Assembly: GCA_026388545.1 (NCBI GenBank)
Contig: JAPLJS010000115.1
Coordinates: 1-40,726 of the forward strand
DNA length: 40,726 nt
Reading direction: 5' to 3'
Source: Deltaproteobacteria bacterium
GTDB lineage: Bacteria > Desulfobacterota > Syntrophia > Syntrophales > UBA2185
Part shown: piece after piece, positions 5,009 to 31,110 of the stretch
How positions within the stretch are numbered: position 1 is the stretch's first letter
Layout: each line of letters begins with the position of its first letter
Program-made: the position numbers and the translations under genes
The notes under the pieces: generated by a model
The model's input: only the letters and a program-made list of their open reading frames with translations
What the model was told of the DNA's origin: nothing
The model's database searches: none

Positions 5009-5091
5009 TTCGCTCTCTTCAAAAACTTCCCCTCCCCTGGTGTTTTGGGGATTGGGGGAGGGGGAAACGGATCATCTTCTCACCCTCCCTC

Positions 5092-5250
5092 TGTCCCTCC
5101 CATCAAGCGAGGGAAGGTAAAGTGGTGTCCCTCCCGTCAAGAGAGGGAAGGTAAGTTGGTGTCCCTCCCATCAAGGGAAGGAAGTAAATTGGTGTCCCTC
5201 CCATCAAGCGAGGGAAGTAAATTGGTGTTTCTCGCATCAGAGGGAGAAGG
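5092..5250. repeat. Tandem palindromic repeat array between recB and recD
   Basis: Five units starting at 5092, 5126, 5160, 5193 and 5226 (periods 34, 34, 33, 33). Each has a core like TCCCTCCCATCAAGCGAGGGA, itself an imperfect inverted repeat with ATCAAG in the loop; the last unit is degenerate. The same core occurs singly inside recB (about 8631-8672). This looks like local amplification of a dispersed palindromic repeat. RNA hairpins here would lie in the recB-recD transcript. Confidence 0.85.
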
Positions 5251-5258
5251 AATGTATG

Positions 5259-8200
5259 TCAATTCGCAATCATATTATTACACAGGAATTCGATCGCGTC
5301 TTTCTTCGGCCTGTCCCGGTAAAATCCCGTATGAGATCCGGTTTCCGGATTCACGCCCCTGAGAAAGATATAAAACACGCCTCCGAAATGCGTTTCATAG
5401 TCATAACCGGACAGGCGCGTCTTCAGGTACTGGTGCAGGGCAACGATATAGAGGTGGTACTGGAGGAGGTACAGCTCCTCCCGCATGACGTCCGCAAGCG
5501 CCTCAACCCGGTAGTCTTCGATAGAAGCGCCCAGGAAATTTGATTTCCAGTCCACGAGGTAGAAGCGCCCTTCATACTGGAAAACCAGGTCCATGAAGCC
5601 CTTCATGAACCCCCGCACCGGCTGGAAATTGAGCCTTCCGATCCTTTCGGGAAATGCCGGATGGGGCGATATGCCGCTTTGCGTGAAGATGTTCTGCAGT
5701 GTATCCGGCGTCAGCCTGTTTAGGGGGAAGTAGAACTCAAGCTCGCTGAGGCGGTCATCGTCACGGATGACGGACAGATTAAGCCCATGTATGGCGGGGT
5801 CGAGGGGCGTGGTGACAACCGAGTCGATCATCCGGCAGACCGCCTCCTGCCATTTCAGATCAAAACCATGCTGCTTCAATTTCACGGTCACGAGATTTTC
5901 CGTTTCCGGGCCATCCGGTGCGGTGAAATCGATGTGCTCCAGAATGTCGTGCAAACAATTGCCCGCTTTCGCACCCCTGGGAAAGGCAAACATGCCGACG
6001 GGCTCTTTGTGATACGGCATTTCCGCGACTATAGTTCCGCCGTCACGATCCGGGAGATCCGCCATGTCATCGGGCGCGATTGCCGGTATCGCCATGCGTT
6101 CCGAAAGCAGATATGAGAAACTGGCAATGCGCCTGTCCCGGTCTGCGATAGCGGGAAATTTCCGGCAGGTGAGATTGTCCGGCAGTTCAGCGGGAGGCAT
6201 GTAGATTTCCGCAGAGGATGCAGGCATATCGTACACGCTGATCGCGCCGCCTGACTTCGATGCAATACTTTCCAGGTCATCCTGGATATCAGAGTTCGAT
6301 AGACTCAAAAATTTCTCTTCCGTCGCCTCAACGATATCCGATGAATCGACTCCGGGAGGATGGAGGGTATAGGTAAGGGAGGACGTGCCCGCATCTTTGA
6401 ACGGCCCCCACACGAGGTAGCAGCGGTTTTTCGCGCGGGTGAGAGAAACGTAGAGAAGCCGAATGTTTTCCGCGAGATTTTCCCTTTCCGCAAGCGTTTT
6501 GCCGGGGCCTGCCTCCGGATCAAGGACAAGGTTCAAACGCCAGTCGTCTTCCGGATCGTGATAGGTGAATTCCCTCTTTTTGTCTTTTGAATCTCCCCAG
6601 TTGAAAGGGCAGAAAACGATGGGATATTCCAGTCCCTTGCTCTTGTGGATAGTGACGATCCTGACGGCACGGGCGTCGCTTTCGAGACGGAGTTCGTGTT
6701 CTTCCGACCGCAGGGCATCCGGATCGCGCTGACAGGAAAGCCACTTAACCATGCCGGAGATGCCCAGCTTGCTTTCAATGGATTTCGTGTGGAGAACTTC
6801 CGTGAGGTGAAGGATGTTCGTCAGACGGCGCTCGCCGTCGGGAAATGCGAGGAGCCGTTCGCGGACTTTCTCTTTCGAGAGGAAATAACGGAACATCCCG
6901 ATGAAGCCGTGACGTTCCCAGAGGGTATTGTATTCCCGGAACCGTGTGACCCATTCTTCCCAGTCGGCCTCATTGTGGTCTAGGGATTCCAGTGCGTTGC
7001 CGTTTGATCCCAGCATGTCGGTCGTAAGGGCGATCTTGATGAGGCCTTCGGAATGGGGCTCAGAGAGAGCGGTAAGGACGCGCTCCACCTCCAGGGCTTC
7101 ATGGGTATCAAAAAGATTGCCTGTACTGTGAAGGACGCTGTGGATGCCGCAGGTCCGGAGGGCATCCTGGATAAGACGGGCTTCCCGGTTTACTCTTACC
7201 AGGACGGCGATGTGGCCTTCAGCCAGCGGTTCGGCGCCGATCATCGCCTTTTCTTCTCTGCCCAGTTTGACAAGGCGGGAGATTTCGGCAGTGACGGATC
7301 TTACGATGAGATCAGCCGTCAGCCTCTGGTTTGTTTTTGCTCCTGCCGCCTCCAGTAGATTACCGTTGAGAAACCAGATGTGAAAAGGTGGTTCGGGGCT
7401 ACCGAAAATGGTCAGCCGTTTCCGGTCTTTTACGTCTCCCGCTTCGGCTCTTTCATAGGGAACCTCCGCGTAAAGAAAAGCGTCCTTCTTGGGGTTTTCG
7501 AAGATAGTGTTGACGGCGCGTACCAGGTCCGGTTCGGATCGCCAGTTACTCGTGAGCGTGTAGCGGAAATCGACGTGCCTCGACGCCCGCATGTAGGCGA
7601 AGAGATCGGCCCCGCGAAAGCTGTAGATGGATTGCTTTGGGTCTCCGATGAAAAAGAGAGGGGATTGTCCGCCTCCAAATATATTCTGAAAAATGGCATA
7701 CTGGATCTGATCCGTGTCCTGAAACTCATCGATGAGAGCGGCCCGGTAGCGGCCCCTGATGTTGCGGACGAGTTCTGGGCCGCCTATACCGTCCAGGGCT
7801 TCCCGAAGGTTAATGAGGAGATCGTCAAAGGACTGGATATTTCGTTTTTGTTTTCTTTTCCGGAGTTCCTCCCGCAGGTACCGGAAAACGTCCGATTTCA
7901 GGAAAAGCAGGTGTCCTTCGATCTGCGCCTCCAGTACATGTGCCATGTTCATGAGTGTTTCGCAGTCGTCGAAAAAAAGGTGTTCGGGGGTTATTTTTCC
8001 TTTATTGGTTCCCATTCTCAGCCCGGATGACGTGAATTTGTCAAAACCTTTTAAGAGCGGTAAGGCTGCTTCCGAATCCACATATCCGTCCATTATGGCA
8101 GCAAGGGAATCCGGGTTTTTGTATTTTGCTTTGTTCAAGCCGGGATCTTTGAGTTTTGTGAGTACGTCCTTTCGGACGCTCCACCACGTCGAGAGTACCC

Positions 8201-8963
8201 TGTCACGCGCTCCTCTGAAAGAGGGCAGGGCATCGAGGGAAACAGGCAACGATGCGGGAATGATCCGCATTTCTGGATTGGAAAGTCTGCCCTTGGTCAA
8301 ATCAAGAAATAGGTGTGGCTTAAAGTTATTCTTCAGGGCATAAGATACAAGTTCACGCGGCGCTTCATAAAAATGCCGGCGCCAGAAGTCCTGAACGATA
8401 TCCTCGTGCAGGGCGCGTTCATCCGGAACGAGTTCTGTGTCGAAGAGTCCCATACTTTCGAAGGCGTTCTCATGGAGAACCCGCTGGCAGAAACCATGGA
8501 TTGTGTAGATCGGCGCCTCGTCGAAATCCCTCAGCGCCGCCCTCAGAATGCGCAGTTTCTCTCCTTTGTCATTCCTGAATTGATAAGCCTGCCCCGTGCT
8601 TGATACAGGGGAATCCACTACGCCTTTACTTTCTCCCTCTCCCTTGATGGGAGAGGGTTGGGTGAGGGTGCTTTTTATGTACTTGCGCACTAGTCCATCA
8701 AGAAACGGATCGTCATGCCCGCCCTTTGTAAACGCATCAATGGCCGCGCGGATCGTCCGGCGGATGCGGTCGCGCAGTTCCTCTGTTGCCGCTACCGTAT
8801 AGGTGACGACGAGAATCTCGCCGACAGAAAACCGTTTTTCAAGGAGGAGGCGCAGAAAAACCCCGGCGATGGCATATGTTTTTCCGGTTCCGGCGCTCGC
8901 CTCGATCAGATTGGTCTTCTCAAGGGCGCTTTTCAGGAGATCAAAATTCCGTGAATCTTCCAT
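5259..8963 (-). CDS. recB: Exodeoxyribonuclease V subunit beta (RecB helicase-nuclease)
   Basis: 1234 aa from ATG 8963, chosen because it begins MEDSRNFDLL three codons before the family's usual block and lies 2 nt after the recC stop; the frame is open upstream only through recC sequence. RecB is the 3'-5' helicase and sole nuclease of RecBCD. Motifs: Walker A EASAGTGKT (21-29), TIHGFCQRV, DEFQDTDQIQY (Walker B region), GDPKQSIYSFRGAD, TIHKSKGLEYP, and the C-terminal PD-(D/E)XK nuclease motif VDWKSN (DWKSN about 1138-1142). Residues about 95-131 (...LTQPSPIKGEGES...DSPVSSTGQAYQ...) are encoded by two palindromic repeats inserted in frame between motif Ia and TIHGFC. The other motifs are intact, so the enzyme is probably functional. 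Confidence 0.96.
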   Translation of the reverse strand: MEDSRNFDLLKSALEKTNLIEASAGTGKTYAIAGVFLRLLLEKRFSVGEILVVTYTVAATEELRDRIRRTIRAAIDAFTKGGHDDPFLDGLVRKYIKSTLTQPSPIKGEGESKGVVDSPVSSTGQAYQFRNDKGEKLRILRAALRDFDEAPIYTIHGFCQRVLHENAFESMGLFDTELVPDERALHEDIVQDFWRRHFYEAPRELVSYALKNNFKPHLFLDLTKGRLSNPEMRIIPASLPVSLDALPSFRGARDRVLSTWWSVRKDVLTKLKDPGLNKAKYKNPDSLAAIMDGYVDSEAALPLLKGFDKFTSSGLRMGTNKGKITPEHLFFDDCETLMNMAHVLEAQIEGHLLFLKSDVFRYLREELRKRKQKRNIQSFDDLLINLREALDGIGGPELVRNIRGRYRAALIDEFQDTDQIQYAIFQNIFGGGQSPLFFIGDPKQSIYSFRGADLFAYMRASRHVDFRYTLTSNWRSEPDLVRAVNTIFENPKKDAFLYAEVPYERAEAGDVKDRKRLTIFGSPEPPFHIWFLNGNLLEAAGAKTNQRLTADLIVRSVTAEISRLVKLGREEKAMIGAEPLAEGHIAVLVRVNREARLIQDALRTCGIHSVLHSTGNLFDTHEALEVERVLTALSEPHSEGLIKIALTTDMLGSNGNALESLDHNEADWEEWVTRFREYNTLWERHGFIGMFRYFLSKEKVRERLLAFPDGERRLTNILHLTEVLHTKSIESKLGISGMVKWLSCQRDPDALRSEEHELRLESDARAVRIVTIHKSKGLEYPIVFCPFNWGDSKDKKREFTYHDPEDDWRLNLVLDPEAGPGKTLAERENLAENIRLLYVSLTRAKNRCYLVWGPFKDAGTSSLTYTLHPPGVDSSDIVEATEEKFLSLSNSDIQDDLESIASKSGGAISVYDMPASSAEIYMPPAELPDNLTCRKFPAIADRDRRIASFSYLLSERMAIPAIAPDDMADLPDRDGGTIVAEMPYHKEPVGMFAFPRGAKAGNCLHDILEHIDFTAPDGPETENLVTVKLKQHGFDLKWQEAVCRMIDSVVTTPLDPAIHGLNLSVIRDDDRLSELEFYFPLNRLTPDTLQNIFTQSGISPHPAFPERIGRLNFQPVRGFMKGFMDLVFQYEGRFYLVDWKSNFLGASIEDYRVEALADVMREELYLLQYHLYIVALHQYLKTRLSGYDYETHFGGVFYIFLRGVNPETGSHTGFYRDRPKKDAIEFLCNNMIAN
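8571..8672. repeat. Two dispersed palindromic repeats inserted in frame in recB
   Basis: Repeat A (about 8631-8672, core CTCTCCCTTGATGGGAGAGGG) belongs to the same family as the array at 5092-5250. Repeat B (about 8571-8617, with CCCCTGTATCAAGCACGGGG on the minus strand) resembles the short GGGAATGAC-type repeats found elsewhere in the window. Together they add about 30-35 codons without a stop. Confidence 0.75.
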
Positions 8964-8965
8964 TT

Positions 8966-11900
8966 TTATCTGATCGGCTCCTCGTGTCTTAACATGGGTT
9001 CGAATATGGTCATGGCCAGTTCGCGGAATTCGGTATCCAGCGGGTCGATCTGCCTGAAGCACAACCGGTAGTAAGGGTTATCGTTTTCAGCATATTCGAA
9101 GGCTTCCCATTTGCCCTTGGCTGTTCTCATTGCTTTTTCCGGTTCTGTAACCTTTGTCGCTTGTTCGGCATAGGCCAAAGAAGATTCAGGAAAAAAATGG
9201 AGGGGTATACGGAGTCCCTTCCAGTAAATGTCGAGAAGGATTCGCAGGTACGTTTCCGTATCTTCCACCTGAGAATATCTAAACGCCCTGTCTTCACCGA
9301 CAATGACCGTCTCCCGAACCGCTGCCTGTTCGCGGAGATGATTGAGGACAAGGTGGGAAATCCAGGCTGTGATCCGATCACGGCCTTTAATCTTTGCCAG
9401 GCGGTAGGAGACCAGCCCGCCGGGATAGACATTGACGAGCCGTCCTGTCAGGTGAAAACCGTCAACGGCTATGTCCACCGCTATGGGTTCTCTCTGCCCT
9501 CCTTCGATATGGGGGTGAATCTTCGTGATAAAATTGGTGGTCGATGTGCACAGGTCGTCATAGCAACAGAGGCCGGGTGACCCGTGGGGCAGCCTTCCCG
9601 ATGCCTGCATGAGGGGATACACATCACGGAGCGGTTTCTCCTCAAGGGCTCTGGCGACAAGTTCTTGCCTCATGAGATACTGTTCCAGCTTGTTCAGTTC
9701 AAACGGTTCGCTCTCATCCATAATGGCAGGTTCTTCAAGGAGGTGGATGCCCAGCCGGTGTCTAAGAAGAAATCTCGCCGGGTTTGAGAAGAAATAACCC
9801 AATGATTCCAGCTTGATCATTTTACATTCCTCTTCGGGTTCGGAAAGTCCGGTCGGTATGAATGGAGCGGTCACCTTGCGGCCTGACACGGCGCTTTGCG
9901 CCGCCCGGAGATTTTCGGCGGAATAGCTGAAAAGCTTTCCAATACCAGCGAAATAAGCGGGACTGAACGCTTGGAGGCGATGTTGAGAGACAATTCCCTC
10001 CCGGACGGTTTCACCGAATCCCTCTTCGATATAATCCAGGAGTTCGCTCACCAGTACCGATGGGGGACGGTTGCTGTTGTCTTTCATGCTCCGGCCGACA
10101 TAGCTGATATGGAGCTTCTGCCGGGCCGACAGTATGGCTTCGAGGAAGAGATGACGGTCGTCCATACGACGCGAGCGGTCGCCGATCCGGGGAGAAGCTG
10201 CCATGAGGTCAAATCCGAGCTTGCGAGATTGCCGGGGATAGGAAGCATCGTTCATGCCGATCAGGCAGATGACCTTGAAGGGGATACTCCTCATGGGGAG
10301 GATGGTGCAAAAGGTCACGCCGCCGGTCAGGAAACCGGCGCCGAATCCACTCTCTTTCAGGTTTTGCTTGAGCCAGGCTTTGATCACATCGAGGCCGATT
10401 TTCTCCGCGAATCCGCAGGACGCCTGTATGTCCGGAAGGTTATGAATGACTCGCCGGATCGCCTGGATGTCCCTCAACTGATTTTCATCATCGGAAAAGA
10501 ATGCTTCAAGGATCTCGATGAGAAAATCCCCCCACTCATTCAGGGTTTTCTTTTCTTCGAGCGCTGCCATGAACCGGAAAAACGTTTCCGTGAATTGCAG
10601 AAAATGACCGAGGATTTCCGTGCTTCCGCCTTCGATGCCGTTGAAAGGAAGGATTCCCATGAAAAGAGTGTCTTCGGAACCGGCCGGCATGGCATACCCG
10701 AGGAGCATCCTGTCAAGTCCGGCCCGCCATGTGTTCGAGGAATACGCCGGCAGACCCAGCGTTTCTTTGTTTTGGGCGTCTATCCCCCAGCGGATGCCGG
10801 TTTCGCGAATCCAGTGGTGAATGAGCGCCAGGTCTTCTTCGGTTAGAGAAAATTTGGTGCGCACGGTATCCGCTTCCAGAAGATCAAGCACACCGGAGAC
10901 TTCATACCGGCTTCCCGCCAGGTCTAATAGTTTGAGAAATGTGTCGATGAGGCCGCTTTCATTAAGCAGCCCCCTGTCGGCGATGGTGAAGGGAAGACAT
11001 CGCGAATCATCGGGAGGGATGGAAAAGATTGCCTGAATGAACGGCGCGTAAAGCTCAATGTCCGGGATCATGACCAGGACGTCGTCGGGGCGAATATCAG
11101 GGTGGTTCGCAAAGATGGCAAGGAGCGAGTCCTGCAACACCTCAATCTCCCTGAGCGGACTATGACAGGAGTGAACCTGCAGGGAGTCATCAGCTTCGGG
11201 GAAGGGGAGTGCGCCTGTGCTCTTCCGTTCCCTCAAATTCAGGATGTCGGACTGGATCGCGGCAAGGAGTGTATTTTCTCCCGGATCTTCGAATGCGGTC
11301 GCCTCTTCGCACTGGATTTCACCGATCATGTGAAAGAACTCCCGGCCAAGTGCGCCCATGGAAGCAAGCAGGCGATTACCCACTTCCAGATACAGTTCTC
11401 CGGGGAGAACATCCCCTCCTTTCTGTCCGCTTACATACCGGTTCATTTCCCGGTCGGAAACGATGTCTCCCCAGAATTCACGGCATGGGTTCATCAAAAA
11501 AAGATTGACGTTGATCACGGATGAAACGGCCGCGAGAATCTGAATGTAAAACGGAGGAAGGGCCGAGATGCCGAAAATGGAAATTCTCTCGGGAACGGTC
11601 CTGAACTCTTTATGCGAATCCCGCATGGCCCGGAGAAAACTATCATGGAGCGCTGCCCGGTGAACCTTTCCCTTCTCCTTGACGAGTTTCCGCCAGAGTA
11701 TTGCCTGCCATTGATCTTCTATGCCCCGGTCCCAATTGAGAATCATGTCAGGCCTGAAGAGAAGGTACTGGTCGAAGAGATCGGCGATCCTCACGGAGAG
11801 CTGAAACAGTTTAAGGTCAATATCGGCTCCTCCAAAATAGGTCTTGATGGCCTGAAACTCGGGATTGTCAAGCATGGATGGAAGGACGCGCATGACATCC

Positions 11901-12181
11901 CAGGACATGATCATGGGTTCGTATGGCGAATGATCGGGCACATCCGGGAGTATTTCCTGAAAGAGGTTATGGACGAAATGAATCGGGTAGGGGAAGCGGA
12001 CATTCGCGCAAATGCCGTTGCGTTGTGACAGCTCCATGGAGAGCCAGCGTTCCATGCCTTTGCTCTGGACGAGGATAATTTCACTCGCAAGCGGGTGATT
12101 CAGGGGAACCTTCAGGACATCCGCAAGAAGCTTCACCAGAATTTCCATCCGGTTGCTTGTATAGAGCGTTAAGCCCGGCAT
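8966..12181 (-). CDS. recC: Exodeoxyribonuclease V subunit gamma (RecC)
   Basis: 1071 aa from ATG 12181 (MPGLTLYTSNRMEIL), preceded by AGGTAAT; a TTG eight codons upstream also keeps the frame open but has no support. RecC holds RecB and RecD together and recognises Chi; it is a degenerate helicase-nuclease without catalytic motifs. Family features: the N-terminal LTLYTSNRMEIL, ILVQSKGMERWLSMELSQRNGICANVRFP..., SIFGISALPPFYIQILAAVS, a later PMRSIPFKVICLIGMND followed by the DRHLFLEAILSARQKLHISYVGRS segment, all typical of RecC. Its stop is 2 nt before the recB start, so the two are co-translated. It is likely expressed separately from the Nudix gene upstream, since two hairpin repeats lie in the gap. 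Confidence 0.95.
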   Translation of the reverse strand: MPGLTLYTSNRMEILVKLLADVLKVPLNHPLASEIILVQSKGMERWLSMELSQRNGICANVRFPYPIHFVHNLFQEILPDVPDHSPYEPMIMSWDVMRVLPSMLDNPEFQAIKTYFGGADIDLKLFQLSVRIADLFDQYLLFRPDMILNWDRGIEDQWQAILWRKLVKEKGKVHRAALHDSFLRAMRDSHKEFRTVPERISIFGISALPPFYIQILAAVSSVINVNLFLMNPCREFWGDIVSDREMNRYVSGQKGGDVLPGELYLEVGNRLLASMGALGREFFHMIGEIQCEEATAFEDPGENTLLAAIQSDILNLRERKSTGALPFPEADDSLQVHSCHSPLREIEVLQDSLLAIFANHPDIRPDDVLVMIPDIELYAPFIQAIFSIPPDDSRCLPFTIADRGLLNESGLIDTFLKLLDLAGSRYEVSGVLDLLEADTVRTKFSLTEEDLALIHHWIRETGIRWGIDAQNKETLGLPAYSSNTWRAGLDRMLLGYAMPAGSEDTLFMGILPFNGIEGGSTEILGHFLQFTETFFRFMAALEEKKTLNEWGDFLIEILEAFFSDDENQLRDIQAIRRVIHNLPDIQASCGFAEKIGLDVIKAWLKQNLKESGFGAGFLTGGVTFCTILPMRSIPFKVICLIGMNDASYPRQSRKLGFDLMAASPRIGDRSRRMDDRHLFLEAILSARQKLHISYVGRSMKDNSNRPPSVLVSELLDYIEEGFGETVREGIVSQHRLQAFSPAYFAGIGKLFSYSAENLRAAQSAVSGRKVTAPFIPTGLSEPEEECKMIKLESLGYFFSNPARFLLRHRLGIHLLEEPAIMDESEPFELNKLEQYLMRQELVARALEEKPLRDVYPLMQASGRLPHGSPGLCCYDDLCTSTTNFITKIHPHIEGGQREPIAVDIAVDGFHLTGRLVNVYPGGLVSYRLAKIKGRDRITAWISHLVLNHLREQAAVRETVIVGEDRAFRYSQVEDTETYLRILLDIYWKGLRIPLHFFPESSLAYAEQATKVTEPEKAMRTAKGKWEAFEYAENDNPYYRLCFRQIDPLDTEFRELAMTIFEPMLRHEEPIR

Positions 12182-12211
12182 GAATTCATTACCTGGAATG
12201 TACAAACTGTA

Positions 12212-21417: not shown

Positions 21418-22362
21418 CTACACTATACCATCCTGCCGCTTCAGCCATCCCGTTACATCCTCTATCAGTGACACTCTGAAATCCTCTGGTGCCAGGAGCA
21501 CAATATTGGGGATCCAGGACTTGAGAATATTGCGTATGGCCTCGTAGTGGCCAACCCTGAAGGTGACGACCAGTGACCCGTCCGGCTTTTCCTCTTTGAT
21601 TTCCTGGGTCGGGAACATCTTCCGGCGCTTGAAATAATGGCTGACCTGGGCATCGATCAGAACCGTGACTTCCAGGTTCATCTCTTCGGCAAACCAAATA
21701 TTGGTGCTGCTCCGAAGGACGGTATCCAAATCCGCCGGGGCACCTTTGAAGAGGGTTTTTGACAATCTGAAATCCCCGATCTTGTCCAGAGCATAACGCT
21801 TGAGGATACCCGTGGCGGGCTCATTCCCGATGAGATACCAGAAACCGCCGAAATAGACGACCCGGTAGGGATCCATCTGGACAGTATGAGGTCCCTTTCC
21901 GGTGACATACTGGAAGCCGACTTGTCTCTTCTCCCGGATGGCCTTTACCATCCGGTTTAGAAGGGAACCATCCAGAGGAACGGCGTCATCGATCTTCACA
22001 AAGATGGGCATGGTTGTCACGCAGTCATACAGACGGTCCAAGACACCGTCGGCTGCCTCCTGGAAAGGCTGGCCCAACTGCCCCACAATATTCTTCAGGG
22101 CCACAACCAGGGCCAGCTCCGTGTCGTCAAAGACCTCCAGGTTCTTCACCAGGTCCTTGCTCATCTGATGGATTCCTTTCTGAACTTCATGCAGAGGAAA
22201 GCCGGATTCCTTCAGCAACAGGAGATCCCGCTGGATCGTCCGGGGGGTCGTCTGGAAGTGCTGACTCAGCCAAGTGCTGGAGACCTTCTCCTTCTCCATG
22301 AAGACTCTGAGGATCTGGCCCAGGCGGATCAGTTTCGTCTGTGTACTTCGATCACGGCTCAT
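21418..22362 (-). CDS. WYL-domain transcriptional regulator (HTH-WYL-WCX)
   Basis: 314 aa. An N-terminal DeoR/HTH_11-like winged helix (residues about 8-55, with the recognition region VSSTWLSQHFQTTPRTIQRDL), a WYL domain (about 135-215: VGFQYVTGKGPHTVQMDPYRVVYFGGFWYLIG) and a WCX C-terminal extension (about 225-310). This is the architecture of BrxR/CapW-type repressors that control phage-defence operons; WYL domains sense nucleic acid or nucleotide ligands. The gene diverges from the defence genes with a 240-bp shared control region; RBS CAGGAGGG precedes ATG 22362. Repression of the facing operon is inferred from layout. Confidence 0.92.
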   Translation of the reverse strand: MSRDRSTQTKLIRLGQILRVFMEKEKVSSTWLSQHFQTTPRTIQRDLLLLKESGFPLHEVQKGIHQMSKDLVKNLEVFDDTELALVVALKNIVGQLGQPFQEAADGVLDRLYDCVTTMPIFVKIDDAVPLDGSLLNRMVKAIREKRQVGFQYVTGKGPHTVQMDPYRVVYFGGFWYLIGNEPATGILKRYALDKIGDFRLSKTLFKGAPADLDTVLRSSTNIWFAEEMNLEVTVLIDAQVSHYFKRRKMFPTQEIKEEKPDGSLVVTFRVGHYEAIRNILKSWIPNIVLLAPEDFRVSLIEDVTGWLKRQDGIV

Positions 22363-22954: not shown

Positions 22955-22984
22955 ATGTTTAGACATATGAAGGAGGGCAAAGTT

Positions 22985-23164
22985 ATGGATACGTTAAAAC
23001 AGGAAGCATTGAATGTGATCGCAAAGATACCAGAGACGGCAGACATCGACACGATTATGTACCGGCTCTATGTTGTCGATAAAATTCGGAAAGGCAGAGA
23101 GGCGGCTGAAAGAGGTGAAACAATCTCAATTGAAGACTTAAAACGGGAAATCGAGTCATGGTGA
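22985..23164 (+). CDS. Type II antitoxin (RelB-like partner of RelE/ParE)
   Basis: 59 aa from ATG 22985, preceded by GAAGGAGGG; an ATG at 22955 would add an unsupported 10-residue extension. It is a short helical protein (VIAKIPETADIDTIMYRLYVVDKIRKGREAAERGETISIEDLKREI), with a C-terminal toxin-wrapping segment. The family is common next to RelE-type toxins. The end overlaps the toxin start (ATGGTGA), so the two are translationally coupled with the antitoxin first. A 33-nt relative of its 3' end survives at 23923-23955. Confidence 0.85.
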   Translation: MDTLKQEALNVIAKIPETADIDTIMYRLYVVDKIRKGREAAERGETISIEDLKREIESW

Positions 23165-23490
23165 TCTGGACCAATCCGGCAAAAGCTGATTTAAAGTCCA
23201 TTCACAACTTTATTGCATCAAATTCGAAATATTACGCTAAAAAAGTCACGCGGGATATCGTTGAAAAAACGGATACATTGAATAAATTTCCGATGATCGG
23301 CCGGGTTGTTCCTGAAACCGATAACGAGAAGATTCGAGAAATATTCGCCTATTCCTACAGGATCATTTACGAAATCAAGCCGGACCACATTTACATTTTG
23401 GGTATTATTCATGGAAAACAGGAGCTTACATCGACGGATCTTTATACCATACAGGAACCGTGCGCATCCATGAAAATACGCAAAGAATGA
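23158..23490 (+). CDS. Type II toxin, RelE/ParE superfamily
   Basis: 110 aa. RelE/ParE fold: VIWTNPAKADLKSIHNFIAS N-terminal helices, then PMIGRVVPET, IREIFAYSYRIIYEI and HIYILGIIHGKQEL. The RIIYEI and HGKQ blocks match the family; whether it cleaves mRNA (RelE) or poisons gyrase (ParE) cannot be decided. It overlaps the antitoxin by 7 nt. Residues after 95 (QEPCASMKIRKE) are a divergent tail. Its place inside a nuclease defence operon suggests stabilisation of the island or an abortive backup. Confidence 0.88.
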   Translation: MVIWTNPAKADLKSIHNFIASNSKYYAKKVTRDIVEKTDTLNKFPMIGRVVPETDNEKIREIFAYSYRIIYEIKPDHIYILGIIHGKQELTSTDLYTIQEPCASMKIRKE

Positions 23491-23537: not shown

Positions 23538-23849
23538 ATGAGTACCGACAGAAGCATCAGGACGGATCGTGCTAAAACAAGAGAAAAGATAATTGACAGA
23601 TCGAAGTATCCAGACAAAGATGGTAGAAATTGGCTTGGTCATGAGACAACGTCGGGAGCTGCAAAGGTCGATGAACTTCTCATGGATGGAGAATATAAAG
23701 ATAAGCTAATTGCTATTGACCTTGGGTACACTATATACAAAGGTTACCCAAACCACAAACCGCACTTACGCGAAGCGCATGGGTTAAAAGTGGTTCGAGA
23801 CACAACAGGGAAATATTTGTTTGACCGTGCAGATTTGGGGATGAGTTAA
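23538..23849 (+). CDS. Small protein of unknown function (103 aa), paralogue of 24055-24666
   Basis: 103 aa; ATG 23538 follows TAAGGAGATATT. Family unknown. Residues 28-100 align with residues 26-115 of the 203-aa protein: DG-x2-WL-x-H (28-35), V-DE-LL (44-48), G-E-Y (51-53), a helix ending HLREAHGLK and a final strand D-x2-GKYLFD. The spacing (two helices, then a short beta hairpin) resembles a winged helix, so DNA or nucleic-acid binding is a reasonable inference but not shown. The basic N-terminus (MSTDRSIRTDRAKTREK) is unrelated to the 203-aa protein. It lies 48 bp after the toxin gene. Confidence 0.75.
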   Translation: MSTDRSIRTDRAKTREKIIDRSKYPDKDGRNWLGHETTSGAAKVDELLMDGEYKDKLIAIDLGYTIYKGYPNHKPHLREAHGLKVVRDTTGKYLFDRADLGMS

Positions 23850-24054: not shown

Positions 24055-24666
24055 ATGGGTGATGGAAGAAAAGAAGATTACTTTAAGAGAACTCAAGATA
24101 TGTTAAAGGGTTTAATTCCGGCGATCGTAGATGGTCAATCTTGGCTCGATCACAAAGGTGAACAGGCTTGGCGAATAGATGAAATGATATTAGCTGGCAA
24201 ATATACCATTAAGGATATTGCCAGGGTGATCTATGATATACAGCCTTCTGATCGAATTAAGCCACTCAAAATCATGATACAAAGAGTGAATAAACACAAA
24301 GATCATCTTACGGATAAGTTTAATGTGAATATGGCACCTCACCGCTTTCAGGTTAAGGTAGGGCCCGATGGTATTGTAAGGTTTGACTTTACCGCAATGA
24401 AACTTTCTATCGATAATCAATCGGCTCTCCAAGAAAAAAATAAAGATATTCAGCAACATAGTGGCTATCTGCCCAACCGTAGCGATTTCAAGAAAGCCTA
24501 CAAGTCGATTGTAGGAGAAATGGGCAAAAAGGGCGCCATTGATGACGTACTGGATCAAATGCAGCGTGATGCCGAAAAGGATGGAAAAACAATGAAGCCA
24601 AACTGGCGCATGATTACGGAAGCTAATATCAGAATATGGGAGAGCGATGAGGATGACAAAAAATGA
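24055..24666 (+). CDS. Unknown protein (203 aa), likely recognition subunit of the McrBC-like system
   Basis: 203 aa; ATG 24055 has TTGGGAGGATAAAAG upstream. Its stop overlaps the McrB-like start by 4 nt (ATGA), so it is a dedicated partner. Residues 26-115 form the domain shared with the 103-aa protein (DGQSWLDH, IDEMILAGKYTIKDIARVIYD, HKDHL, VKVGPDGIVRFDF), which has a winged-helix-like layout. Residues about 135-203 are a separate helical segment (SDFKKAYKSIVGEMGKKGAIDD ... NWRMITEANIRIW) with an acidic tail. No known family was recognised. Because the adjacent AAA protein lacks the N-terminal target-recognition domain of McrB, this protein is proposed to provide recognition; that is inference. 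Confidence 0.8.
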   Translation: MGDGRKEDYFKRTQDMLKGLIPAIVDGQSWLDHKGEQAWRIDEMILAGKYTIKDIARVIYDIQPSDRIKPLKIMIQRVNKHKDHLTDKFNVNMAPHRFQVKVGPDGIVRFDFTAMKLSIDNQSALQEKNKDIQQHSGYLPNRSDFKKAYKSIVGEMGKKGAIDDVLDQMQRDAEKDGKTMKPNWRMITEANIRIWESDEDDKK

Positions 24667-25874
24667 CCAAAATGAAAGTTGATTGGACCAAGAGAACTGT
24701 GAAAATGTGGGGGACTATGGAGCATATCTATGACTATTTTGAGGAAAAGGACTATTTCTTTTCTCGGGAAATCCTTACCCGCTACTTCCTCTCTCTGAAA
24801 ACAAAGCCTTTTGTCATCCTCACTGGGATTTCCGGAACAGGAAAAACGAAGATCGCGCAGGTCTTTGCTGAATATATGTGCCAGGATGAGAAAACACAGG
24901 AGGAACGGGAAAGTCGTATCGCCTTTGTGCCGGTCAGACCTGACTGGATGGACAACAAAGGACTCCTGGGCTACTACAACCTCCTCGATGAAAAATATTA
25001 TGCGACACCGGTACTACGCCTGCTTCTGGAAGCGGAAGAACATCCCGAGAAGCCCTATTTCGTCATCCTCGACGAGATGAACCTAGCCAAGGTGGAGCAG
25101 TATTTTTCGGATTTTCTCAGTATTATGGAGAGCCGTACCCCTGGCAATCCCAAGGGCGAAGCGATCCCTCTGCACGCCCTGAATAAACCCGCGCAGACAC
25201 TCGATGGCCTGAATATTCCTCCAAAAATCCACGTCCCACCGAATGTCTATTTCACGGGAACTGTCAACGTGGATGAATCTACCTACATGTTCAGCCCAAA
25301 GGTTCTGGATCGGGCAAACGTTATCGAATTCAACGAGGTGAACCTGGATAACTACGCAAAAGGGATTATCCCGTCGGACCACTTTGCCCTTAAGGACCCG
25401 GATGTGAGACAGCGCCTGCTACCTGCTGACGGCGACAGCCCTTTCTGTACAAAGAAGGATTTTATTGAGGCCATGAAAGTTGATGCAGACGTCGGCGATT
25501 ATCTCAACGAACTTCTGGACATTCTGCGTCCCTTCAACCTTCACTTCGGCTACCGCGTTATCAACGAGATCAGCCGCTACATTTGCTATGCTTTAGATGC
25601 TGTTGACAAATTCGACCTCAATACCGTCATGGACATACAGATCCTCCAGAAGATCCTCCCAAAATTCCACGGTGCCCAAGCAAGGATGGGGGAGCCCTTG
25701 TCGCGGCTGTTTGCGTCCTGTTGCAATGACGAAGATGAAGGCGCACTTGCTGATGACTATCTCCGTAAAGCGGCTGAGTATAACGAAACCCCTCCCTGTC
25801 CCCGGTCGGCCCGGAAGCTGGCCCGGATGATCCTGAACCTGAAGAGTCAGGGATATACAAGCTTCATCGAGTAA
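24663..25874 (+). CDS. McrB-like AAA+ NTPase
   Basis: 403 aa. Walker A GISGTGKT (55-62), Walker B with the McrB signature ILDEMNLAKVEQYFSDFLSIME (DEMN at 137-140) and NVYFTGTVNVDESTYMFSPKVLDRA (GTVNVDES at 199-206), where McrB has a MNTADR-like motif. McrB is the GTP-driven motor that forms a ring and activates the McrC nuclease. Only about 50 residues precede Walker A, so the usual DNA-recognition domain is missing. Overlaps the 203-aa gene by 4 nt and is followed 6 nt later by the McrC-like gene. ATP versus GTP preference cannot be read from the sequence. Confidence 0.92.
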   Translation: MTKMKVDWTKRTVKMWGTMEHIYDYFEEKDYFFSREILTRYFLSLKTKPFVILTGISGTGKTKIAQVFAEYMCQDEKTQEERESRIAFVPVRPDWMDNKGLLGYYNLLDEKYYATPVLRLLLEAEEHPEKPYFVILDEMNLAKVEQYFSDFLSIMESRTPGNPKGEAIPLHALNKPAQTLDGLNIPPKIHVPPNVYFTGTVNVDESTYMFSPKVLDRANVIEFNEVNLDNYAKGIIPSDHFALKDPDVRQRLLPADGDSPFCTKKDFIEAMKVDADVGDYLNELLDILRPFNLHFGYRVINEISRYICYALDAVDKFDLNTVMDIQILQKILPKFHGAQARMGEPLSRLFASCCNDEDEGALADDYLRKAAEYNETPPCPRSARKLARMILNLKSQGYTSFIE

Positions 25875-25880
25875 GTAAAT

Positions 25881-27596
25881 ATGTCTATCCTGCGCTACAC
25901 CCCTGAAATCCGCATGGCCATCGCTGATGAGCCCATGTTTCCTGCCGCTGTGGAAGAGGTTGCTGCGTGCAGCAGCATTGACGACGCACTGACTCTTCAG
26001 GACTGGAAAACCTATTTTGTCAAGTTCTACACGGAAGAAGTACCCGCCTTCTTCCCCGCTCCCGAACAGTATTACAACTATCGTCGATTTCCCGGCCAGC
26101 TCTTCGAGATTGGCTTCCGAAACGCAGCGGGCCTGACACGCATCGGTCCCGTTCCCGTTCGTGTGCAAAGCAGAAAGATCCCGGAGGCCCTCTATCAGGA
26201 AATGCTCGATTATATCGCCGATCAGTATGCCAACCTGGCCTTCAGTTTCGATACGCTCACGGGCCAGCACTACGGGAAGCCACAGGCGGGCCGGGACATT
26301 GCCTACATCGAATACCTGTTTCTCAAGAAATACCTTCTCGATGCTTCACCAAACCTGGACGGCATCGCCGCCCTGATCCTTGCCGACCCCCACCGGCGGT
26401 TGCACCGGGAATTTCGTCGCTGCGATATCAGCGCCGTGACATCACCCCATCCGGCCATGTTGATGTCTCTGTTGACGTCACCTGAGCGGATGACCATCCT
26501 CAAATCAGGACATCCTCTGCTGGCGGCGGGTCTAGGGCGTTCCCTGTTAAGCAGAACCGGCCGCGGGCTTTATCCCGCCGAGGCCATCGAAGAGTACAAG
26601 TATCATTCGGTGGACACCAACGAAAACCGCTTTGTAAAATATCTGCTGGAAACCATTCAGCGGCGCCTGGATGGTCTGAAGAAGGCCCTGACAGGAAAGG
26701 GTGGCGGATACCTGAACCCGGAGATTGAAGGACGCATCGGGGAAATGGCCAAGAATATCCGGCGATTTCTGGCCGATCCACTCTGGAACGATGTGGGCAG
26801 CCTCCATTTCCCACCTCTCCAGTCTCAGGTCTTACAGAGGCGGGATGGCTACCGGCAAATCTTTCAACTCTATTGTCTCCTCCAGCTCGCATCCCGTTGC
26901 GCCTTTGACGAAGAGGATTTCCGAAACTTGCTCGAAACGAAAGACACCCCAACACTTTTCGAATACTGGTCATTTTTTGTCGTCAAGGAGATCATGGACA
27001 GCCTCCTCAAGAGAACCTCCTGCGGCGTCATCGTCAATGACCACCCCATGGAACAGACAGTCACCCAGGGGATCTGCATCCACTATGAAGAAGGCGTGTC
27101 TCTCTGGTTCAACAGGAGTTTCGGCGGGTCGAGAGGCTGGCGCACAGGAGAAGGCACAGGAGCGGAGGATGATAGAGAAGCGGGGATGGAAGAAGATTAT
27201 TCTGCTAACGACGCATCCACCGGTGAAAGTTATTCCCATACTTTACGCCCCGATATGGTCATTTCCAAGGGTGAAACACTCCTTATCTTTGACGCCAAAT
27301 TCAAGGAAAAAAGTGGTGGTTTTTACTGTGAAGATGAATCCGGCGCGATTACCAAATGGAAAGAGGAAGACATAAACAAGATGCACGCCTACCGGGAGGC
27401 GATCCGCCATGCCGCGGGGGCCTATATAATCTATCCTGGGGAAACCGGCATTGTCTATAAGGCCCACGATGCGGTAAAACCCTTTGAGGGCGTAGGGGCA
27501 TTTCCCCTGAAACCAGAGACGGGGGCGAAACCAAATAAGCAACACCGTCATAAGATTCGCAGCGCCATTGTGGATTTCATTGAGAAGGACCGTTGA
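25881..27596 (+). CDS. McrC-like PD-(D/E)XK nuclease (DUF2357/COG1700 type)
   Basis: 571 aa. The N-terminal half (to about 330) fits the DUF2357-type McrC scaffold that docks on an McrB ring. The C-terminal half is a restriction-endonuclease-like nuclease: a TLFEYWSFFVVKEIM helix with the family Glu-x-Trp pattern, then D458 in LRPDMVI and D471-A-K473 in LLIFDAKFK, a complete catalytic set. Residues about 415-445 are a Gly/Asp/Glu-rich linker (GSRGWRTGEGTGAEDDREAG). It starts 6 nt after the McrB-like gene; together they form a type IV restriction-like pair. The pair normally cuts modified DNA; the target here is unknown. Confidence 0.9.
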   Translation: MSILRYTPEIRMAIADEPMFPAAVEEVAACSSIDDALTLQDWKTYFVKFYTEEVPAFFPAPEQYYNYRRFPGQLFEIGFRNAAGLTRIGPVPVRVQSRKIPEALYQEMLDYIADQYANLAFSFDTLTGQHYGKPQAGRDIAYIEYLFLKKYLLDASPNLDGIAALILADPHRRLHREFRRCDISAVTSPHPAMLMSLLTSPERMTILKSGHPLLAAGLGRSLLSRTGRGLYPAEAIEEYKYHSVDTNENRFVKYLLETIQRRLDGLKKALTGKGGGYLNPEIEGRIGEMAKNIRRFLADPLWNDVGSLHFPPLQSQVLQRRDGYRQIFQLYCLLQLASRCAFDEEDFRNLLETKDTPTLFEYWSFFVVKEIMDSLLKRTSCGVIVNDHPMEQTVTQGICIHYEEGVSLWFNRSFGGSRGWRTGEGTGAEDDREAGMEEDYSANDASTGESYSHTLRPDMVISKGETLLIFDAKFKEKSGGFYCEDESGAITKWKEEDINKMHAYREAIRHAAGAYIIYPGETGIVYKAHDAVKPFEGVGAFPLKPETGAKPNKQHRHKIRSAIVDFIEKDR

Positions 27597-27684: not shown

Positions 27685-30600
27685 ATGCAGAAAGTAAATA
27701 GTCAAACCCTCTTTTCCGCCTCCGATGTGGTCAACTTTCTGGAATGCGAGCATCTGACAACCCTCGATCTGATTAATCTAGACACACCCCTTCTCAAGGC
27801 AGAGGACGACGAAGAGACGCTTCTTTACCAATCCAAAGGGATTGCCCATGAAGCAGCGTATTTTGATCGCCTCAAACAGCAATCACCTTCTTTCGCCGAT
27901 ATTTCCGGTATCAAGTATGATCTTGATGGAGCGGTCAAAGCAACCCGTGACGCCATGTACGCCGGGGCGGAGATCATTTTCCAGGCCGCCTTGCGCGATG
28001 GCTGTTTTATCGGCCATGCGGACTTTCTAAGAAGGGAGCATACTCCTTCTGAACTTGGTGCTTTCAGCTACGAGGCTGTGGATACAAAGCTTGCCCGCAG
28101 AGCCAAGGCCAAGTTTCTTATTCAGCTCTGTTTTTACTCCGAGCTCATTGCCAAAGTTCAAGGACGCGATCCCGTTATGATGCATGTCGTCCTGGGTGAC
28201 AGACGTGAGGAGGCCTTTCGCTACGCTGATTACTCCAAGTATTATGAATCGCTTAAAAGGCGCTTTCTCATCAGGGTTCAATCCGATACCGGCGAAACCT
28301 ACCCTGACCCCTGTGAACGTTGCGACACATGCCGATGGCGAAACCTGTGCGAGGAACGCCGATGCCAAGACGACCATCTCTGCCAAGTGGCCAATATCAC
28401 GAAATTGCAGATCAGGAAACTTACCGAGCATGGCATCAAGACGTTAGAGTCCCTTGCCGTTTTGCAGGAAGACGAACGCGTCCCGACGATGGCCCCGGAG
28501 ACGCTCGCCACACTCCGTCATCAGGCAGCGCTGCAACACAAGAAACGGCAAACCGGAGAAGATCATTTTGATCTGCTGCCATTGGATCCGAAAGGGAAAC
28601 GCGGTTTTTTCAGACTGCCGAAACCCGATGCCGGGGATATCATCTTCGATATGGAGGCAGACCCCTTGGAGGAAGGCGGACTGGAATACCTCTTCGGGGT
28701 TTACTTTCTTGAACACGGCAAGCCCCGTTTCCAGAGCTTCTGGGCCCATACACAATATGAAGAACGGCGAGCCTTTGAACAGTTCATGGATTTTGTCGCC
28801 AACCGTCTGAATCAATACCCAAACGCACACATTTACCACTATGCTCATTACGAAGAGACGGCGTTGAAGCGGTTGATGTCTCTCCACGGAATACGCGAGG
28901 CCGAGGTAGATAATCTTTTACGTTTCGGAAAACTCATCAACCTCTATAAAGTGGTTCGGGAAGGGATGAGAATATCTGAGCCCCGATATTCCATCAAAAA
29001 TGTCGAGCGCTTCTATATGGATGAACGATCAGGTCCGGTCAAGGACGCAGGAATAAGCATCGTCTATTACGAGCGTTGGAAGGAGACAGGGGATAAGAAG
29101 CTGCTAAAGGAGATTGAGGAATATAATCGTGATGACCTGAGATCAACTTATAAACTCCGGCAATGGCTTCTAACCCTGCGGCGGGATGAGCTTCCCTGGG
29201 CGAATGATTCAGTAAATTCCTCGACGGCATCTCAGCAAGATATCCGTGAATTGAATGAAGTTGAATTGCGACTGGCACATTACCGGGAACGGCTTGTTGA
29301 CCCCCTTCCCGAAAACCGTGATGAGTGGACAGAACAGGATGGACTCAAAGAACTTACATATCAGCTTCTGGATTTTCACCGGCGCACCGAAAAACCGGTA
29401 TGGTGGTCTCTTTTCTCCCGGCAGGAAATGACGGATGAAGAGCTTATCGACGATGTCGAGGCTATCGGGGGATTGGTCAGAGATCCCAAAAAGCCTCCCC
29501 AGCAGGTTAAGCGGTCGTTCATTTACACATTCTTATTTCCGGAACAGGAAACGAAACTGAAAACAGGCGATACCTGCGTTCGCACGGATACCCTCGACAA
29601 GGTTAATAACGTAATCGTCAGTGAGGATGGCCGTTGCTTAACATGCAGCTATCCAATGAACAAAGGCACATTGCCGGAGAAAATGAATGTTGGTCCGAGC
29701 GGCCCGATATCAACAAAACCACTTAAAGACGCGCTTTTCCGCTTTGCCGATCATCTTATCGAGGGAAAGAAGAGATACATGGCCCTGGAGTCTATAATGC
29801 GTCAAGAGATTCCACGCATCAAGGACCATCCTGAGGGTACGGCGATTATCAATGAATCACTGGAGCGGCTGCCCCAGATTATCGAAACGGTGGCCAAGCT
29901 TGATTCCAGTTACGTCTTCATACAGGGACCACCCGGTTCCGGGAAAACATATAGCGGTTCCCGCGTTATCGTGGAACTGCTTCGCCGTGGCTGCCGCATC
30001 GGCGTCTCATCGAACAGTCATAAGGCCATCAACAATCTTCTCTGGAATGTCGAGGCCGTTGCGAGTCAACAAAACATTCAATTTAGCGGGGTAAAGAAAT
30101 CGACGCGAGACAAGGCCGAAAGCGAATTTCATGGCGATTTCATTCAAGATGTGTTCAGCAATGATGATATATTTGGCGGAAATTGGCAGCTTGTTGCCGG
30201 TACTGCTTGGTTGTTCTCCCATGAAAATATGGACCAATCCCTGGATTTTCTTTTTGTTGACGAAGCGGGACAAGTTGCCCTGGCCAATCTCATCGCCATG
30301 GGAACAAGCGCCAGAAACATTGTCCTCCTCGGCGATCAGATGCAACTTGGACAACCGATTCAAGGCGTTCATCCAGGACGATCAGGGGAATCGTCTCTTG
30401 ATTATTTACTGAACGGAATAGCCACTATCCCGCCTGAGCGGGGAATATTTCTTGGAACGACATGGCGCATGCATCCGGATGTTTGCCAGTTTATCTCGGA
30501 GGCAGTCTATGACGGCCGCCTGAAACCAGATGTTTCCAACAATATACAATGCCTGATAATTTTGAAAAACGCCCATCCATTTCTCAAACCTACGGGTATC

Positions 30601-31110
30601 TGCTATATCCCCGTCGAACATGACGCCTGCTCCCAGCGCAGCCAGGAAGAGGCCGATATTGTTATGAAGTTGTACGAAAACCTTTTGATGCAGCATTATC
30701 TGGATAAGAAAGGAAATAAACATCAGATCACCAATGAGAACATCCTTATCGTGGCGCCCTACAATATGCAGGTAAATCTTCTGAAGACATTGCTGCCGGA
30801 GGGTGCGCGGGTGGGAACGGTAGACAAATTCCAGGGACAGGAGGCTGAGGTGGTGATCATATCGATGGCAACATCCAGCGGCGATTATCTGCCGAGGTTT
30901 ATTGAGTTCCTGTACAGTAAAAACAGACTTAATGTCGCAATCTCAAGGGCAAAATGCCTTGCGATCCTTATTGCAAATCCGGCGCTGATGTCAATTCGCT
31001 GCACGACGCCGGAGCAAATGGCTTTAGTGAATACACTCTGCTGGGTTAAGCGCTACCAGGATAAAAACAATAAGCCTGAACATCCAACGACTTGTGTTGA
31101 TAATCTGTAA
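27685..31110 (+). CDS. TM0106-type nuclease - DEDD exonuclease - Dna2/Upf1-like SF1 helicase
   Basis: 1141 aa, three enzymes in one chain. (1) Residues about 10-235: RecB/Cas4-like nuclease with D113 (GHADFL), D133-T-K135, QLCFY at 147, and an Fe-S set C21 plus C213-x2-C216-x5-C222, with extra cysteines at 210, 227 and 233. (2) About 315-500: DEDD/RNase_H_2 exonuclease (IIFDMEADP with D322 and E324, HYAHYEETAL, YNRDDLRSTYKL). (3) About 735-1120: SF1B helicase with Walker A GPPGSGKT (748-755), Walker B FVDEAGQ (D859), GDQMQLGQPIQG, TVDKFQGQEAEVVIIS and NRLNVAISRAK. All active sites look intact. It lies 88 nt after the McrC-like gene; the start at ATG 27685 has a poor RBS but matches the family N-terminus (ASDVVNFLECEHL). 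Confidence 0.93.
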   Translation: MQKVNSQTLFSASDVVNFLECEHLTTLDLINLDTPLLKAEDDEETLLYQSKGIAHEAAYFDRLKQQSPSFADISGIKYDLDGAVKATRDAMYAGAEIIFQAALRDGCFIGHADFLRREHTPSELGAFSYEAVDTKLARRAKAKFLIQLCFYSELIAKVQGRDPVMMHVVLGDRREEAFRYADYSKYYESLKRRFLIRVQSDTGETYPDPCERCDTCRWRNLCEERRCQDDHLCQVANITKLQIRKLTEHGIKTLESLAVLQEDERVPTMAPETLATLRHQAALQHKKRQTGEDHFDLLPLDPKGKRGFFRLPKPDAGDIIFDMEADPLEEGGLEYLFGVYFLEHGKPRFQSFWAHTQYEERRAFEQFMDFVANRLNQYPNAHIYHYAHYEETALKRLMSLHGIREAEVDNLLRFGKLINLYKVVREGMRISEPRYSIKNVERFYMDERSGPVKDAGISIVYYERWKETGDKKLLKEIEEYNRDDLRSTYKLRQWLLTLRRDELPWANDSVNSSTASQQDIRELNEVELRLAHYRERLVDPLPENRDEWTEQDGLKELTYQLLDFHRRTEKPVWWSLFSRQEMTDEELIDDVEAIGGLVRDPKKPPQQVKRSFIYTFLFPEQETKLKTGDTCVRTDTLDKVNNVIVSEDGRCLTCSYPMNKGTLPEKMNVGPSGPISTKPLKDALFRFADHLIEGKKRYMALESIMRQEIPRIKDHPEGTAIINESLERLPQIIETVAKLDSSYVFIQGPPGSGKTYSGSRVIVELLRRGCRIGVSSNSHKAINNLLWNVEAVASQQNIQFSGVKKSTRDKAESEFHGDFIQDVFSNDDIFGGNWQLVAGTAWLFSHENMDQSLDFLFVDEAGQVALANLIAMGTSARNIVLLGDQMQLGQPIQGVHPGRSGESSLDYLLNGIATIPPERGIFLGTTWRMHPDVCQFISEAVYDGRLKPDVSNNIQCLIILKNAHPFLKPTGICYIPVEHDACSQRSQEEADIVMKLYENLLMQHYLDKKGNKHQITNENILIVAPYNMQVNLLKTLLPEGARVGTVDKFQGQEAEVVIISMATSSGDYLPRFIEFLYSKNRLNVAISRAKCLAILIANPALMSIRCTTPEQMALVNTLCWVKRYQDKNNKPEHPTTCVDNL

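Follow-up and report, generated by a model that had tools for sequence, protein, structure and literature searches.

A TM0106-family nuclease–helicase resembling Dna2 adjoins McrBC-type genes on a Syntrophales contig and may act as their degradation effector

Eukaryotic Dna2 joins a Cas4-like iron-sulphur (Fe-S) nuclease to a superfamily 1B (SF1B) helicase of the Upf1 type, and an Fe-S cluster is likewise carried by AddB. Passages of PMC3985635 describe RNHL family F.13 as a PD-(D/E)xK nuclease (DUF83-like) combined with a PF13482 exonuclease, frequently together with tandem AAA domains, and those of PMC11090510 describe CoCoNuT systems of types II and III, in which an McrB with an NxD motif is paired with the UPF1-like helicase CnuH and RNA targeting is predicted. 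Here we analyse gene D (27685..31110, + strand), which encodes a TM0106-type nuclease, DEDD-fold exonuclease and Dna2/Upf1-like superfamily 1 (SF1) helicase in one chain of 1141 residues. It lies on contig JAPLJS010000115.1 of a Deltaproteobacteria bacterium, whose whole stretch of 40,726 nucleotides we call the window, and it follows the McrB-like gene B and the McrC-like gene C. We propose, with a probability of about 50%, that D serves a WYL-associated defence operon as a portable Dna2-like effector that degrades nucleic acid, and that in this window it has been added to an NxD-type McrBC pair and small proteins of a type that we call A.

The protein family is known and the architecture of D has already been published: the parts of PMC3985635 that cover the TM0106 family (TIGR03491; COG2251) give the same architecture, and we found no difference in the protein itself. 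Its partnership with McrBC is what we did not find described. No mention of the pairing was found in the titles and abstract openings searched, a scope outside which supplements and most subscription papers fall, nor in passages of PMC11090510, PMC3985635 and PMC12458937. The terms COG2251, RecB, Cas4 and DEDD do not occur in the main text of PMC11090510, nor do Cas4, RecB and UPF1 in passages of PMC12458937.

The frame of D is open from ATG to stop without interruption, which rules out a chance or broken open reading frame (ORF). TIGR03491 matches residues 11-495 with 331.6 bits against a cut-off of 97.45, spanning positions 2-462 of the 462 in the model; PF13482 matches residues 320-495 (E 8.6e-31), and AAA_11 and AAA_12 match the C-terminal half. 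By sequence, D is an ordinary member of TIGR03491/COG2251. Two AlphaFold models together predict a Cas4/RecB-fold nuclease at residues 3-263, a 3'-5' exonuclease fold of the DNA-polymerase type at 315-505 and an SF1 helicase at about 523-1129. The full-length model (19 aligned sequences) reached a predicted local distance difference test score (pLDDT) of 84.1 and a predicted template modelling score (pTM) of 0.75, and its best match in the PDB is Dna2 (5ean; Foldseek E 3.5e-27). Since the VIA-align results for this model were dominated by helicases, so that the nuclease rows there were uninformative, the nuclease half was modelled separately (pLDDT 93.1, 17 sequences). Membership of D in Mokosh, PLuB, DpdJ, IGHMBP2 or RecD2 was rejected: the best stretches were confined to the helicase part, and for PLuB, IGHMBP2 and RecD2, the three with cut-offs, D scores far below them.

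Conservation was assessed in 58 homologs, comprising the window, 18 genome loci, 15 plasmid loci and 24 other genome loci. Dropped before counting were L021 (same genome as L004), L022 (same place as L059), L020 and L001 (the window itself), as well as L023, a fragment with a stop; L024-L039 were used for exonuclease motif II only, and the place shown by both G057 and G102 was not counted twice. Across this set the predicted catalytic residues of all three domains are nearly invariant.

The first domain (residues 1-265; 27685..28479, + strand) is predicted to be a Cas4/RecB-fold PD-(D/E)xK nuclease. Residues 3-263 of the separate model align with Cas4 8d3l_I (Z 14.8, 206 aligned residues, root-mean-square deviation (rmsd) 4.7), and Foldseek links the nuclease half clearly to Cas4 and Dna2, with a best E of 2.3e-5 and eight rows at E <= 0.001; a sequence-profile search found no solved structure for this half. 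The RecB motifs (His, Asp, Asp-x-Lys and QxxxY), represented by H55, D113, D133, K135, Q147 and Y151, are kept in 57 of the 57 rows that hold the region. One N-terminal Cys followed by a C-terminal C-x2-C-x5-C makes up the Fe-S set of Cas4, AddB and Dna2. The predicted counterparts in D are Cys21 (27745..27747, + strand) as the first ligand and, from the homolog alignment, Cys213-x2-Cys216-x5-Cys222 (28321..28350, + strand) as the other three. These four residues behave as an all-or-none set: 48 rows have all of them, two N-terminally truncated rows have the last three, eight have none and no row is mixed. As the eight rows form one branch of the D tree (one change), the loss is to be read as a single historical event and not as eight tests. 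An earlier note on this DNA, made from the sequence alone, had extended the Fe-S region to C210, C227 and C233. All three are variable, with Cys in 30, in the window alone and in 10 of the first 45 rows, respectively, and were rejected, which leaves C21, C213, C216 and C222 as the only predicted ligands. The branch without the four cysteines (L047, L048, L051-L056) has S-x-G-A instead and still keeps the RecB nuclease residues.

The second domain (residues 315-505; 28627..29199, + strand) is a predicted DEDD-fold 3'-5' exonuclease corresponding to PF13482. It aligns with the exonuclease domains of family-B polymerases (Z 15.5, 170-172 aligned residues, rmsd 3.0-3.3); Foldseek alone gave a weak match (6wyb, E 0.03), and PF13482 backs the assignment by sequence. 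The fourth acidic residue, whose presence the earlier note had left in doubt, is there: D322, E324, E390 and D484, together with Y480 of the YxxxD motif, occur in 58 of 58 homologs. The acid of motif II is Glu, not Asp, both in all homologs (E390) and in 16 of 16 short TM0106 relatives. In a by-eye alignment we take Y-H-Y-A-H-Y-E-E to correspond to Y-N-G-D-N-F-D-F of polymerase Exo II, which presumably puts E390 over the Asp. A D-E-E-D set is also used by the exonuclease of coronavirus nsp14. The predicted exonuclease site of D is complete, as a D-E-E-D plus Tyr variant.

The third domain is a Dna2/Upf1/Ighmbp2-like SF1 helicase (residues ~523-1129; 29251..31071, + strand). It aligns with Ighmbp2 (4b3g_B: Z 26.5, 518 aligned residues, rmsd 6.2), and also with Upf1 and Dna2. 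Walker A (748-755), the DEAG motif II (D859/E860), the SF1 motifs and the SF1 fold are all present. Ten helicase residues are intact in 55 of the 58 homologs, the exceptions being two with E for D859 and one truncated at the C terminus. The next conserved motif after Walker A is reached already at 776-780, without the large helical insert of CnuH. The earlier proposal that one chain combines two nucleases with a Dna2/Upf1 helicase is hence borne out by profiles, folds and the homolog alignment; every residue that it named is found in its place, and the active-site residues are kept in homologs. The objections that the earlier note foresaw fall away, because both the RecB and the DEDD fold are predicted in the models and the acidic residues are complete.

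D is the last of four genes on the + strand. Gene B (24663..25874; PADLOC PDC-M26A) encodes a McrB-like AAA+ NTPase that keeps Walker A, Walker B and the NxD motif (NVDE); only 54 residues precede its Walker A (the McrB of CoCoNuT types II and III is fused to a long coiled coil), and no fused specificity domain was recognised in it by family-profile matches. Gene C (25881..27596) encodes a McrC-like protein with DUF2357 and PDDEXK_7, in which the D-x-K motif is kept (D471-A-K473). The McrBC-like genes that the earlier note saw beside D were thus confirmed as B and C, upstream on the same strand. The gap between C and D is 88 bp in the window, where the scan listed no terminator-like site, and D begins about 6 bp past the C stop in L002 and L003. 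Gene A (24055..24666) encodes 203 residues that matched no known family; its C-terminal domain of about 59 residues is common to paralogs at related loci, and it may be a specificity or adaptor protein. When the 155 genomes of the order were searched with a profile of this domain, 5 gave a match. One match is weak (26 positions, E 9e-4), and the remaining four come from the window genome and from three genomes with places that agree with L002, L003 and L016. At these three loci, two of them titled Smithellaceae and Syntrophaceae, the WYL gene, A-like genes, B, C and D are all kept. The WYL-domain regulator of the window (21418..22362, - strand) diverges from A-B-C-D. A-type proteins, of which L003 and L016 each encode three, have unlike N-terminal parts on the common C-terminal domain; they look as if exchangeable specificity modules were attached to a shared docking domain. 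An ORF at 23538-23849 matched no family; a stretch of 45 residues is similar to the N-terminal part of A (33%, E 1e-5 in a single comparison). Between the WYL gene and A lies a ParE-type toxin gene (23158-23490, + strand), preceded by an overlapping ORF of 69 residues without a Pfam match, perhaps the antitoxin (block 22955-23490). About 15 kb from D, a single block on the - strand (3152-12205) encodes RecD (3152-5008), a RecB-type UvrD helicase (5259-9062) and RecC (8966-12205).

Compared with described systems, the locus shares parts with several. Like canonical type IV McrBC, for which cleavage of modified DNA in dependence on GTP is characteristic, it has a McrB-like NTPase and a McrC-like nuclease; it differs in the NxD motif, in the lack of a recognised specificity domain in McrB, in the separate A proteins and in the presence of D downstream. 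With CoCoNuT types II and III, as portrayed in passages of PMC11090510, it shares an operon that combines an NxD McrB with a DUF2357 McrC and a UPF1-like helicase. In contrast to those systems, the helicase of D is joined to two nucleases rather than to OB, SmpB or RNase-toxin-like domains, and McrC here keeps PD-DxK. As the CnuH features, the long Walker A insert and RNA-type accessory domains, were not found, we do not class the locus as a CoCoNuT. The likeness to eukaryotic Dna2, the best full-length Foldseek match, is qualified by the second, DEDD-fold exonuclease between nuclease and helicase and by the setting of D in a bacterial defence-like operon. AddAB and RecBCD also couple a helicase to a RecB-type nuclease and degrade DNA, whereas D is a single chain with a Upf1/Dna2-type motor and an extra DEDD-fold exonuclease.

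McrBC-type genes recur beside D at 12 of the 58 loci (window, L002, L003, L016, L040, L018, L065, L075, L076, L085, L009 and L083). In the window, L002, L003 and L016 an NxD McrB (NVDE) accompanies a DUF2357 protein; at L018, L065, L075, L076 and L085 McrB and McrC follow D; and L009 has the order D, HNH, McrB, contig end. Where the motif type of McrB was read (window, L002, L003, L016, L040, L018 and L065), it is NxxD at L018 and L065, whose hosts are Herbaspirillum and Leisingera. McrB overlaps the end of D at these two loci and abuts D at L085. To explain the McrBC label, the D tree requires 9 changes, of which well-supported branches force no fewer than 7; the mean after shuffling is 11.2. 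In a first set of 21 genomes, two of which share one place, DUF2357 occurs in 4 and adjoins D in 3, and McrC (PF10117) occurs in 3 and adjoins D in 1. A taxonomy-drawn sample of 21 D genomes (8 + 5 + 8, with two centre genomes left out) contains 8 McrC genes in 6 genomes, and 4 of the 8 lie 2.9-5.4 kb from D; four within 6 kb compare with 0.04 expected for random places (P 5e-8). G1000 carries its McrC gene and its D on separate contigs, which yield no distance, and the L077 genome has no PF10117 match. PF09823 matched neither the second set of 21 genomes nor the controls, and its silence is therefore not evidence of absence. At L040 (1-4418), on a Caballeronia plasmid, a CoCoNuT-like pair of an NxD McrB-like protein and a protein of 1104 residues annotated as DUF2357 lies about 1.6 kb upstream of D; the DUF2357 and cold-shock-domain matches of the latter both fall just under the Pfam cut-offs.

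The remaining surroundings of D were labelled at 56 loci with 22 partner queries, taking the longest ORF to set gene starts. Some other neighbours are defence-like: multiubiquitin/ThiF genes of ubiquitin-like conjugation (L042, L045, L052 and L075, the last two by BLAST), SbcCD-like genes, a TrlF-type ATPase with BrxL nearby, Wadjet JetD (L006) and a TmtA-like protein (L061). Others are ordinary, such as UbiD (L009), a flavin reductase (L010) and arsenic genes on a Novosphingobium plasmid. HNH endonuclease genes stand directly 3' of D at L005, L009 and L011, at L009 between D and McrB. Three groups of genomes, counted with their centre genomes, contain D in 9 of 369, 6 of 399 and 9 of 385 cases. 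Coverage of at least 80% of D is reached by 60 plasmid records out of 72,556, but by no phage record among 50,697. At E 1e-3 there are matches in 34 of 100 genomes related to that of the window; full-length D is found only in G057 and G095 and a fragment in G040, and many of the other matches are helicase-less TM0106 proteins of about 500 residues. This patchiness in genomes, the occurrence on plasmids and the changing partners would suit a mobile defence module.

On the basis of these results, we envisage that the McrB-like ring and McrC, with its own PD-DxK nuclease and perhaps steered by A, would recognize and cut invading nucleic acid, and that D would then load at the exposed end, possibly through contact with the McrBC proteins. 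Helicases of the Dna2/Upf1 group move 5'-3', and by family the SF1 motor of D would pull the strand in this direction. The Fe-S RecB nuclease would cut the strand fed in, presumably DNA, and the DEDD-fold exonuclease would trim the 3' end, upon which repair or replication of the invader would fail. The earlier note had called D the degradation engine of the system, reasoning from the retention of two nucleases on a helicase beside McrBC-like genes. That argument is overstated, as two nucleases are the rule in the family; the idea gains support instead because the McrBC linkage recurs, involves two McrB motif types and requires 9 label changes on the tree. Several observations weigh against this proposal. 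On the tree the McrBC label shows some clustering, an equally low number of changes being enough in 16 of 500 shuffles, and the 12 loci should hence not be counted as 12 independent cases. No McrBC gene was seen at 46 of the 58 loci in the stretch examined, several of which stop at contig ends, and McrBC is therefore not required for D. Some of these 46 loci have defence-type partners of other kinds; many show none that we recognised. The McrBC genes of L083 are oriented away from D and lie beyond the WYL gene; at L040 the interval of about 1.6 kb contains an opposite-strand ORF; and at L016 an ORF of 251 residues separates C from D. Of the 56 labelled loci, some of which were also sources of the 22 queries, 22 gave no match to any query. 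Clustering is usual in any case for genes of defence islands, and the P value for proximity of McrC and D rises to 0.006 at 20-fold and to 0.13 at 50-fold local density; island clustering is for this reason the main remaining alternative.

D might accordingly work in defence by itself, in many cases together with a WYL regulator, and McrBC would adjoin it only because defence genes gather in islands. This is a possible explanation, which we hold less probable than the effector role. It is consistent with WYL-type genes within 1 kb of D at 12 of the 56 labelled loci (BLAST with three WYL queries, a WYL-like ORF of 125 residues at L055 being excluded), with the Novosphingobium plasmid, where WYL and D have no other recognised defence neighbour, and with the absence of McrBC from most loci; the overlapping or abutting McrB genes and the repetition of the pairing with two McrB motif types argue against it. 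The target could also be RNA, since CoCoNuTs of the NxD McrBC branch are predicted, in passages of PMC11090510, to act on RNA. NxD McrBC and the Upf1-like helicase would then attack phage transcripts and the DEDD domain would serve as RNase, a model which the NxD motif of B, the pairing of NxD McrB with a UPF1-like helicase in CoCoNuT types II and III and the near-threshold cold-shock match at L040 would favour. We regard it as unlikely: D has an active-looking Cas4/Dna2-type nuclease, its predicted exonuclease fold is nearest to the proofreading domains of DNA polymerases, a Pfam scan of A, B, C and D revealed no RNA-binding accessory domain of the cold-shock, OB or a similar type, and the same type of D also pairs with NxxD McrBC. 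Still less credible is a housekeeping role as a bacterial Dna2 analogue in end resection or lagging-strand work; the full-length similarity to Dna2 agrees with it, and the restriction of D to about 2% of sampled genomes, its presence on plasmids, its changing neighbours and the RecBCD-type subunits encoded in the same window do not.

The degradation-effector reading can be widened, tentatively, to a plug-in effector that unrelated recognition modules (NxD and NxxD McrBC, ubiquitin-like/ThiF, SbcCD-like, TrlF and HNH) recruit repeatedly, with type IV restriction then consisting of cutting followed by dedicated end-driven degradation. D is found on about 2% of sampled proteobacterial genomes and on at least 60 plasmid records, mostly annotated merely as a putative nuclease. 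If D is indeed the degradation partner of McrBC-type systems, this would account for what follows the first cut, tie Dna2-type chemistry to bacterial immunity and offer a single effector with partners that hint at several uncharacterised sensors.

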